A DNA stretch of 23,900 nucleotides from a virus, in the IMG/VR virus record IMGVR_UViG_3300031227_003385, positions 1 to 23,900 of that record; one strand, 5' to 3'. Within the stretch, counting starts at the first letter, position 1. Each line of letters opens with the position of its first letter. This document shows, piece after piece, positions 2,135 through 12,857 of the stretch. The position numbers and the translations under genes are program-made. Below the pieces are notes generated by a model, which had not been told where the DNA came from, made no database searches, and saw only the letters and a program-made list of their open reading frames with translations.

Positions 2135-2434
2135 ATGAACAGGCGAAAATTTCTAAAATCGATTATCAAAGGCGTGGCGGTTGGCACAATCGCGCCTATG
2201 GCTCTGGTTAAGTCGCTTCCTGGGATATCAAAGGCTATGGTTTCGACGCCTGGCATGAGAGCTACATTAGGGAATACTTTATTGACCCCACAGATTATCG
2301 CACAGGAAGCCCTAAGAATGCTTCAAGAGGATTTGGTTCTGTCCAAGCTGGTGCATAAGGAATATGACAGCCCAATCAAAAAATTAGACACTATTAAAAT
2401 CAGGCGTCCACCGAAGTTTAAAATTACTAAATAG
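2135..2434 (+). CDS. chimera: Tat leader fused to coat-protein N-terminus
   Basis: This encodes 99 residues from an ATG with a strong AAGGAGGT site (2121-2128). Residues 1-30 or so form a second Tat-type leader (MNRRKFLKSIIKGVAVGT). Residues 47-99 align with residues 5-58 of the major coat protein encoded at 11595: NTLLTPQIIAQEAL against NSLLTPSIIAKEAL, and IKIRRPPKFKITK against ITIRKPVKFKVTK. By eye about half of the positions are identical. The gene stops with TAG exactly where the coat protein would continue. It therefore looks like an accident joining an export leader to a piece of a different phage's coat gene. Whether it is translated and does anything is unknown. An interfering coat fragment is possible, but a Tat leader would tend to send it out of the cytoplasm. 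Confidence 0.6.
   Translation: MNRRKFLKSIIKGVAVGTIAPMALVKSLPGISKAMVSTPGMRATLGNTLLTPQIIAQEALRMLQEDLVLSKLVHKEYDSPIKKLDTIKIRRPPKFKITK
2273..2431 (+). pseudogene. coat gene remnant, N-terminal piece
   Basis: This is the coat-derived part of the chimeric gene at 2135. It matches coat residues 5-58 with one single-residue gap. The DNA differs from the intact coat gene at very many positions, including non-synonymous ones. It is therefore a diverged homolog, probably from a related phage, and not a recent copy of the gene at 11595. It is followed in the same reading frame by a second coat piece after a TAG codon. Confidence 0.75.
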
Positions 2435-2443
2435 GAGGTAGGC

Positions 2444-2554
2444 ATGGGGGTTTTGCAGTTGGGCGATATCTTCACAGTAGAGGGTTTCTTCGAACCTGGC
2501 ACTACTAAACTTAAACAATTCAGGAATACAGAAGAAGTAACAGGAGGTGCTATA
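2444..2554 (+). pseudogene. coat gene remnant, I-domain piece
   Basis: These bases encode VLQLGDIFTVEGF followed by LKQF, matching coat residues 257-286 (VLNVGDVFTVAGV, then LRQF), with a gap where the coat has a longer loop. About 200 coat residues are missing between this piece and the one ending at 2431, so the ancestral gene suffered an internal deletion. The piece has its own ATG at 2444 with AGGAGG (2433-2438) and runs in frame into the SPASM radical SAM gene. It could therefore be read as a 37-residue extension of that enzyme. I treat it as a remnant because a better start exists at 2555. Confidence 0.72.
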
Positions 2555-3385
2555 ATGTACGGACTCAGCGGAGTAAATATTGAATTAACGTCAAGGTGCC
2601 AGAAAAGCTGCTGGATGTGCGGAAGGCGCAAGCTGGAAAGAGAACACCCTGAAAAATGCGATTGGGGAGACATGCCTTTCGATATGGTTCAAAACCTATC
2701 TGAAGAAATACCGAAGGGTGTATTTGTCCAGTTCCATTGGAATGGTGAGCCGCTTATGTACCCGAAATTATTAGATGCGCTGACTTTGTTCAGGAATCAC
2801 CATACCGGGCTGGATACTAACGGTAAGTTGTTATTTGAAAAGGCTTACGAGCTTATCGGGTATATCGACACGCTGACAATTTCGGTTATTCAGGACGATC
2901 CAGAGGCGGTTGAACAGTTTGATATTGTATCAAAATTCCTTGATCTAAGAGGTGACAGAAAACCAATGGTTATCTTCAGGATACTAGGGGATGTTTTGAC
3001 ATCGGCATGGGAGGTCTTAGCCAAGCACCATAATTGCCAGATAGTAACCCGCACCCTACACAGCCCGGATATGTCCAAAGACTACGAAAAGCCGGTTACG
3101 ATTCCCGAAACAGGGGTATGTCAGGAAATGTTGCATAAGCTGGCTATTGATCGGTTTGGTAACGTATCGCCTTGTGTGAGGTATGATCCTGACGGCGTTA
3201 ACAGGCTTGGAAGGGTTGATTTATGTTATCTTGGGGAAAATCCTGACTGTTGGGGAGATCCTAATATTAAAGAGGTTTGGTATGGAGATAAGCGCAAAGA
3301 ATGGGTCAAGGCCCACATGGAAGGTAGGCGGGAAGATGTGCCGCTGTGCGGTGGGTGCAGCTATTGGGGGGTGCCTTGTGGGTAA
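2555..3385 (+). CDS. radical SAM protein with SPASM-like C-terminus
   Basis: This encodes 276 residues from the ATG at 2555, chosen for AGGAGG (2542-2547) 7 bp upstream and because the protein then begins directly with the barrel's first strand. The 4Fe-4S signature is C15, C19, C22 in TSRCQKSCWMCGRRK. HWNGEPLMYPKL supplies the GEP-type strand that contacts SAM. The C-terminal third has spaced cysteines (a CQEM... segment, DRFGNVSPCVRYD, and finally VPLCGGCSYWGVPCG), the layout of a SPASM/twitch auxiliary cluster domain. SPASM enzymes modify peptides, proteins or small molecules. The substrate is unknown. The small gene just upstream could in principle be a peptide substrate, but it carries a Tat leader and coat sequence and no RiPP-like core. 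The 3' end overlaps the next gene by 8 bp. Confidence 0.88.
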   Translation: MYGLSGVNIELTSRCQKSCWMCGRRKLEREHPEKCDWGDMPFDMVQNLSEEIPKGVFVQFHWNGEPLMYPKLLDALTLFRNHHTGLDTNGKLLFEKAYELIGYIDTLTISVIQDDPEAVEQFDIVSKFLDLRGDRKPMVIFRILGDVLTSAWEVLAKHHNCQIVTRTLHSPDMSKDYEKPVTIPETGVCQEMLHKLAIDRFGNVSPCVRYDPDGVNRLGRVDLCYLGENPDCWGDPNIKEVWYGDKRKEWVKAHMEGRREDVPLCGGCSYWGVPCG

Positions 3386-5868: not shown

Positions 5869-7162
5869 GTTTCCAGAAAAGCTTAGTTTCCTGTTTAAGC
5901 GCCTACGCTACAAAATAGCGAGGGGTGGCCGTGGTTCTGCCAAGTCTTGGAGTTTTGCCAGGGCTTTGTTGATTATCGGCGTAGAGAGGAAGATACGTAT
6001 CCTGTGTGCCAGGGAAGTTCAGCTTTCAATCAAGCAATCAGTCCATAAGCTACTGAAGGACCAAATAGAGCTAATGGAACTGTCTGAATACTATGAGGTA
6101 TTGGAGAGTGGTATCGGGTGCATTAACGGTACAGAGATCAATTTTACAGGCCTGTCTACACTCACGGTTGACACAATTAAATCATTTGAGGGTGTTGACA
6201 TATGCTGGATTGAAGAAGGGCAGGCAATATCTAAACGGTCCTGGGATATCCTAATCCCAACCATTCGAAAAGAAGAATCTGAAATCTGGATCACCTATAA
6301 TCCTGACCTTGAAACAGACGAAACCCATCAACGATTTACAATCCATCAACCTAAGCACTGTATCAACGCTGAAATGAACTGGCGTGACAATCCCTGGTTC
6401 AGTGGAGTACTGGAAGAAGAAAGACTGCACTGTAAAGAGAACAGCCCCGACGATTACGATAATATATGGGAAGGCAAATGCAGATCCGCAGTTGATGGAG
6501 CTATCTATTTCAAGCAGATCCAGGAAGCAGAGACACAGGGCCGTGTGTGCAACGTGCCGTATGATCCAATGTTGAAAGTACATGTGGTGGTCGATCTTGG
6601 GTTCAATGATGCTATGTCAATCGGTATGATCCAGAAGCATGTATCAGGCTTAAGGCTCATAGATTACATAGAGGAAAACCAGAAGACGCTTGATGAATAC
6701 TCCACGTTGCTGAAAGAAAGAGATTACAATTGGGGTAAGGTCTACCTACCATTTTCAGATGGGTTCTCAAAGGACGTTAAGACCGGCAAGGGGTGTGATG
6801 ATATATTCAAGGCCCTTGGGTGGGATGTGGTCAACAAGACAGAGATTGCGTCAGCGGCAGTCGAGGATGGCATTAAGCAAACCAGGATGTTGTTCCGTCA
6901 AATGTATTTCGACAAGGATAAATGCGCTGGTCTAATCGAGGCCCTAAGAAGATACAGACGGCATATAAACAGAAAGACCAACGCCGCCGGAAGTCCAGTG
7001 CATGACGATTTTTCACATGGTGCTGACATGCTCCGGTACGTGGCTATAAATATAGACCATATGACCAATGAAGATGTCGACCGTAAAGAGATCCTAAAGA
7101 AACTATCAATCACCAAATCAAGACTATACGCCGGTGACAATTCCGGCGGCTGGATGGGATAA
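5834..7162 (+). CDS. terL: terminase large subunit (PBSX/Terminase_3-like)
   Basis: This encodes 442 residues. It is the packaging motor ATPase and nuclease, docking on the portal. Walker A is GGRGSAKS (31-38); Walker B with the catalytic acid is VDICWIEE (121-128). The RNase H-like nuclease domain shows its metal-binding acids in VVDLGFNDA (252-260, D254), PFSDG (D309) and HDDFSHGADMLRY (390-402). Length fits this family. The start is GTG 5834 or ATG 5840, both inside the end of terS; neither has a strong separate site, so the two terminase genes are probably coupled. The portal start overlaps the stop by one base. Confidence 0.95.
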   Translation: MTMTTAKTIQPEFPEKLSFLFKRLRYKIARGGRGSAKSWSFARALLIIGVERKIRILCAREVQLSIKQSVHKLLKDQIELMELSEYYEVLESGIGCINGTEINFTGLSTLTVDTIKSFEGVDICWIEEGQAISKRSWDILIPTIRKEESEIWITYNPDLETDETHQRFTIHQPKHCINAEMNWRDNPWFSGVLEEERLHCKENSPDDYDNIWEGKCRSAVDGAIYFKQIQEAETQGRVCNVPYDPMLKVHVVVDLGFNDAMSIGMIQKHVSGLRLIDYIEENQKTLDEYSTLLKERDYNWGKVYLPFSDGFSKDVKTGKGCDDIFKALGWDVVNKTEIASAAVEDGIKQTRMLFRQMYFDKDKCAGLIEALRRYRRHINRKTNAAGSPVHDDFSHGADMLRYVAINIDHMTNEDVDRKEILKKLSITKSRLYAGDNSGGWMG

Positions 7163-11594: not shown

Positions 11595-12857
11595 ATGGCT
11601 GGTACAAACTCATTACTTACCCCATCGATCATAGCCAAGGAAGCTTTAATGCTTCTGAAAAATCAGCTTGTGTTTGGGGGTAAAGTTCATCGGAAGTACA
11701 AGGAGGAATTTGTCAAGGTTGGTGGGTCAATCACGATCCGTAAGCCTGTTAAATTCAAGGTTACAAAGGGACGTACCCGCGTAACTTCAAGAGTCACTGA
11801 AAAGAGCATTCCGCTCACGGTTGCAACCCAGGCCCATGTGTCTTGGGATTTCACCACTGTTGACCTGACCTTAACAATCGAAAACTATAACGAGCGATAC
11901 TTAAACAACGCGGTTGCTGCAATTGCGAATACGATTGATGCTGACCTTGCCGCGCTTTATAAGGACGTTTACAACACTGTGTGGGAGTCTACTGGATACG
12001 TTGATCCGCATTCCTTCATCGTGCTTGGTAAAGCAGCTCAAAAATTGGATGAGGAATCCGTACCCGCCGATAATCGTTGTCTGGTATTGAATCCTTCGGC
12101 TCATTGGTCCATGGCTAACGCCCTTAGAACTGTATATGTTCAGGACATTGCCAAACCTGCATTACGCAAAGGGTATCTTGCTACAATCGCTGGCATGGAA
12201 ATATTTATGGACCAGAATGTCCAGAGTCATACTGCCGGTAATTGGGGTACTGGATCTGGTACCGATGGTACAGGCGTTGAAGTAGCAACAGGCGTTGCGA
12301 GTGCTGGCGAGACTGGCACAACCGCGATTGCACTTTGCGATTTTGACATAACAACTACTAACGTGCTTAATGTGGGCGATGTTTTCACGGTCGCTGGTGT
12401 TTATGCTGTTAATAACATGTCAGGTAATAGTACCGGGCAGCTTCGACAGTTTGTTGTAACCACGGCTGCATCTGCTGGATCTACCGGGACGACTACCGAG
12501 TCCGCTATTACTGTCCATATTGATCCGCCAATGATCGACACAGGCCCGTACAAGACAATTGATACCATGCCTGTTGGTGGCGCGGCTGTTGATATCGTTG
12601 GTCAGATAATCAAGCAAACTCCAGAGAACCTTGCGTTTCACAAAAATGCGTTCGCGCTGGTTGTTATTCCTCTTGAAATTCCTGATGGTGCGAGCTTTGC
12701 AGCAAGGGCAACAGATAAGGACACTGGCCTGAGTATTCGGATCCTTAAATGGTACGATGGCGATAACGATGTAGAGAGTATTCGCCTTGACGTGCTGTAT
12801 GGCGTTAAAACTCTTTATCCTGAACTTGCTTGCCGTTTACTTGGCGCGCAGGTCTGA
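11595..12857 (+). CDS. major coat protein, P22 gp5-like
   Basis: This encodes 420 residues. GGAGGT (11582-11587) precedes the ATG. The N-terminal phrase NSLLTPSIIAKEALMLLKNQ and the ITIRKPVKFKV strand are hallmarks of P22-type coat proteins (HK97 fold). VLNVGDVFTVAGVYAVN (257-273) followed by QLRQFVV is the typical I-domain strand pair. A Gly/Thr-rich loop (about 213-245) precedes it. The C-terminus (SIRILKWYDGDNDVESIRLDVLYG) fits the same family. Pieces of a diverged second coat gene are found at 2273-2554. Confidence 0.94.
   Translation: MAGTNSLLTPSIIAKEALMLLKNQLVFGGKVHRKYKEEFVKVGGSITIRKPVKFKVTKGRTRVTSRVTEKSIPLTVATQAHVSWDFTTVDLTLTIENYNERYLNNAVAAIANTIDADLAALYKDVYNTVWESTGYVDPHSFIVLGKAAQKLDEESVPADNRCLVLNPSAHWSMANALRTVYVQDIAKPALRKGYLATIAGMEIFMDQNVQSHTAGNWGTGSGTDGTGVEVATGVASAGETGTTAIALCDFDITTTNVLNVGDVFTVAGVYAVNNMSGNSTGQLRQFVVTTAASAGSTGTTTESAITVHIDPPMIDTGPYKTIDTMPVGGAAVDIVGQIIKQTPENLAFHKNAFALVVIPLEIPDGASFAARATDKDTGLSIRILKWYDGDNDVESIRLDVLYGVKTLYPELACRLLGAQV

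Follow-up and report, generated by a model that had tools for sequence, protein, structure and literature searches.

Two small neighbouring genes of a phage with a P22-type coat protein, here called A and B, begin with twin-arginine-type leaders and run on into coat or coat-like sequence, and the same pair occupies the same site in a second, diverged phage, L102. The window in which they were found is the 23,900-nucleotide stretch of the IMG/VR virus record IMGVR_UViG_3300031227_003385 that was analysed; all of its features cited below lie on the plus strand. Gene A and the leader of gene B show protein-level selection. Our preferred reading, to which we give an even chance, is that A and B are coat-derived leader genes that have been kept, having arisen by fusion and trimming and serving a leader-directed role in the envelope.

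Results

Coat sequence in and behind gene B

Gene B (2135-2434; TAG stop at 2432) encodes 99 amino acids, in which a leader beginning MNRRKFLK (residues 1 to about 42) is fused to a segment corresponding to coat residues 5-58 (nucleotides 2270-2431, gene B residues ~46-99). This correspondence, already proposed in a sequence-only reading of the window, was borne out by the profile of the major head protein phrog_283 (E 4.4e-9) and by a custom coat HMM built without the window, L102 and a third phage, L088, against which the tail scored 58.1 bits (0 of 1500 shuffles reached this). The window phage carries its own intact coat gene at 11595-12857 (PF11651, E 1.5e-51; phrog_283, E 6e-83), and the gene B tail is 50% identical to residues 5-58 of that protein. 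Pfam PF11651 gave the tail 17.8 bits, below its 24-bit cut-off, and covered only positions 3-54 of 423; the tail thus matches the P22-type coat family in sequence (phrog_283, custom HMM) without reaching the gathering score expected of a full-length subunit. Together these searches support the assignment of gene B residues ~46-99 to the N-terminus of a P22-type coat.

A second segment, at about 2447-2538, follows the gene B stop in the gene B frame, behind its own Shine-Dalgarno sequence and an ATG at 2444. The 37 codons in question had been matched to coat residues 257-286; against the custom HMM the segment scored 6.6 bits, a weak value that none of 1500 shuffles attained (shuffle maximum 2.3), with its best fit at coat ~256-290. 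It gave weak matches to 30 of 94 coats; of ~596 non-coat small ORFs drawn at random, only one had 10 or more. The segment resembles coat ~256-290, weakly but above chance, and its coat identity is drawn from the profile score together with its position just downstream of gene B, with which it shares both the frame and the order of the coat sequence. When either segment was searched for placement in a non-coat family, the gene B tail fell within the coat family, and 2447-2538 on its own found no family among the phrog or Pfam profiles. The sequence-only reading had described both pieces as diverged from the intact coat. Residues ~256-290 are presumably the start of the inserted I-domain of P22-type coats; the PDB entry 6mnt (126 aa) could be aligned with coat 255-338.

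The radical SAM/SPASM gene downstream (2555-3385) has a native start with its own Shine-Dalgarno sequence, and homologues in L102, L100 and L007 align from this point. The ATG at 2444, with its well-placed Shine-Dalgarno sequence, is a second potential start 37 codons upstream and in frame (2444-2569), and reading from it runs on into the SPASM gene. An extended SPASM protein whose N-terminus derives from coat is possible from this arrangement.

Gene A is also coat-like

Gene A (1747-2133) carries an RRNFLK twin-arginine-type leader followed by ~100 weakly coat-like amino acids, and is homologous to L102 11472-11888 (33% identity; tblastn E 3e-13). Its likeness to coat had been overlooked in the earlier reading. 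Weak phmmer matches to coats were obtained for the window gene (39 of 91 matches) and for the L102 gene (67 of 137), against none for 11 control genes in either case. None of 1500 shuffles reproduced the coat signal of the window gene, which had 14 coat matches in the comparison with random ORFs described above (at least 10 in 1 of ~596). The L102 gene A is collinear with coat ~46-120 (Smith-Waterman 69, null 39 +/- 4), as in VATQYHVS against VATQAHVS of the coat, and by eye the collinearity extends to ~150. By these comparisons gene A is likewise coat-like, clearly so in L102 and with a weaker signal in the window. For gene A residues 40-70, coat 46-70 and coat 365-395 fit about equally, so that a collinear reading of the window gene is not certain; gene A as a coat C-terminus, or as coat pieces in a changed order, was kept only as an alternative alignment. 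AlphaFold2 models of gene A reached a pLDDT of 46, too poor for a fold search.

In sequence, the tails of A and B and the 2447-2538 piece are like the P22-type coat (PF11651/phrog_283). They differ from it in that only ~30-105 residues are kept, that a leader precedes them in A and B, and that a separate intact coat is present; in length, the tails of A and B fall short of a complete HK97-type subunit.

Leaders of the two genes

An RRxFLK motif stands at the N-terminus of all four leaders (A and B, window and L102) and is followed in each by a moderately hydrophobic stretch, as in Tat signal proteins (TIGR01409/PF10518). Unlike in those proteins, the model scores are below cut-off and the cargo is a coat piece; three of the four leaders were matched, with 16.2 and 13.2 for TIGR01409 (cut-off 16.7) and 16.6 for PF10518 (cut-off 22.7). 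We infer from the motif that the leaders would direct export of the A and B products.

The gene pair in L102

The ends of the L102 contig (G001), 1-3233 and 39578-42810, overlap over 3,233 bp at 99.5%, and the contig is likely a permuted, near-complete genome; an apparent extra coat at the contig end was rejected as part of this overlap, with no second gene. Like the window phage, L102 has one intact coat gene. Its two radical SAM genes, the same as in the window, enclose two adjacent leader genes, A and B, and a small M15 gene; here the leader pair stands apart from the SPASM gene. The two gene B leaders are 50% identical over L102 residues 1-42. The tail of L102 gene B corresponds to coat 91-120 (24.8 bits, custom HMM; 0 of 1500 shuffles), so that the pieces kept by the two phages, 5-58 and 91-120, do not overlap.

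Radical SAM neighbourhood

The cassette of the window is bordered upstream by a B12-binding-type radical SAM gene (3-1160), whose 5' end is cut by the window, and contains a small M15 peptidase/endolysin gene (1449-1745; PF13539, E 3e-8) with a homologue next to the L102 leader pair. Another M15 homologue, in L057, belongs to a lysis-like cluster that precedes terL (its membrane genes were assigned by eye, none being named by Pfam). Both radical SAM genes are shared by five phages, at a spacing of 0 bp in L100, 93 bp in L093, 203 bp in L007, 1395 bp in the window and 2152 bp in L102, and no coat sequence lies between them in the first three. The order in L007 and L100 is B12-type radical SAM, SPASM radical SAM, methyltransferase, terminase; L093 has the first three, the only ones covered by that comparison. 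In L102 the terminase and portal follow the two radical SAM genes, and a methyltransferase search gave no match. The short, coat-free spacing in relatives, together with a SPASM start at 2555 that matches its homologues, indicates that the coat pieces arrived with a separate cassette. Relatives of the SPASM gene occur in many bacterial genomes, which shows that its occurrence does not depend on coat sequence, and no A/B-like or coat-like gene lay beside it in the bacterial genomes scanned. Modification of the coat piece by a radical SAM enzyme, as a peptide precursor, was not favoured, since the SPASM homologues in L007, L100 and L093 have no adjoining coat piece and many others are bacterial.

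Upstream of the radical SAM genes in L007 (3723-6593) and in L154 (10571-14155) there is a sugar module consisting of a cytidylyltransferase, an aminotransferase-like gene and a NeuB-family gene; it resembles surface-glycan synthesis (by Pfam for two L007 genes, by eye for the rest).

Other coat-derived reading frames

Scans of viral contigs for further A/B genes returned L102 only, and the pair is thus known from two phages. We also searched 12,363 small ORFs, all from regions retrieved around coat or radical SAM genes, with 21 coat queries; the clear outliers beyond cut or split coats were window gene B, L102 A and B, and two ORFs of L088. One of the latter (6388-6801) is a 137-aa mini-coat made up of coat HMM positions 1-25, 64-111 and 340-383 (E 2.4e-17); the other (6801-7007) encodes 68 aa with the coat C-terminal strand. 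Like A and B, they are small, coat-derived and near the terminase, in a phage with an intact coat; unlike A and B, they have no export-type leader, keep other coat pieces and lie between terL and portal. A match upstream of the L016 coat was full of stops and was attributed to chance, and L077 ORF 2122, with 14 weak coat matches, was set aside as a false positive. The P22-type coat gene of L106 (5995-7510; MW202674.1) is annotated in two parts with ~220 bp between them; this gap lies inside one coat gene and the case is unrelated.

Selection and origin

Comparison of the window with L102 gave 67, 49 and 87 differences at codon positions 1, 2 and 3 of gene A (p 0.003) and 13, 10 and 28 at those of the gene B leader (p 0.001), a third-position excess that places both under protein-level selection. 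In gene A the excess spans the whole length, coat-like tail included; for gene B the test covers the leader, the coat pieces being different in the only two phages compared. The reading frames are open in all four genes; in neutral runs to 50% identity, a 54-codon piece stayed stop-free by chance in ~18%.

The coat part of B groups weakly (support 79/95) with the coat subfamily of the window, L007, L011 and L016, on a branch of 1.22, 12 times the median of 0.1 (tree on 57 columns). A fast-evolving duplicate from the phage's own coat subfamily seems more likely than a foreign coat, although the tree does not make this firm. With the B coat part inside its own subfamily on a long branch, the source in another P22-like phage that had been postulated is not needed.

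Discussion

We reasoned that one or two coat-gene copies of the phage's own subfamily may have been fused behind twin-arginine-type leaders and then trimmed differently in each phage, B retaining 5-58 plus a stranded 256-290 in the window and 91-120 in L102. Once freed from head-building, the copies would have changed fast. Most likely the leader continues to bring the product to the inner membrane or periplasm, or to anchor it there, and the coat-derived tail would be a small domain put to new use at that site, perhaps for lysis or to block another phage.

The main rival, which we regard as possible but clearly less probable, accepts A and B as real leader genes and takes their coat pieces for inert recombination leftovers that differ because nothing keeps them. 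The non-overlapping B pieces of the two phages, the very long branch of the B coat part, the stranding of 256-290 behind the gene B stop and ahead of the SPASM start, and the chance with which a neutral piece of this length stays open would all fit such leftovers, whereas the four open frames and a third-position excess that runs through the coat-like tail of gene A speak for maintained tails. The sequence-only reading had suggested that the fragments are kept as interfering peptides. That they are kept has become more likely, given selection on A and the B leader and the recurrence in L102; for interference, the results point neither way. Cytoplasmic coat-derived modulators of assembly, or peptides binding the intact coat of the same or a competing phage, strike us as unlikely: the pieces are indeed segments of the assembling subunit, and L088 keeps its mini-coat free of any such leader, but a twin-arginine-type leader would remove the product from assembling heads and L088 may represent a separate event. 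Least plausible, and in our judgement very improbable, is the proposal of the sequence-only reading that a coat gene of another phage took up the accessory radical SAM genes, by insertion or by recombination through it. The 2447-2538 piece, abutting the SPASM gene in frame, speaks for this proposal, which runs counter to the coat-free, closely spaced radical SAM genes of L100, L093 and L007, to the separation of the leader pair from the SPASM gene in L102, and to the divergence of the B fragment on its own branch.

Shortened copies of genes are well known from mosaic phage genomes. Among the papers searched, none described an adjacent pair of genes, common to two diverged phages, in which export-type leaders are fused to pieces of coat. 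It is conceivable, though we put it forward only tentatively, that duplicated coat genes have become, in phages, a class of small envelope-targeted proteins, each an export leader with a reused coat segment, for lysis or for use against other phages. Should the products prove functional, they would represent a capsid protein reused outside the capsid.
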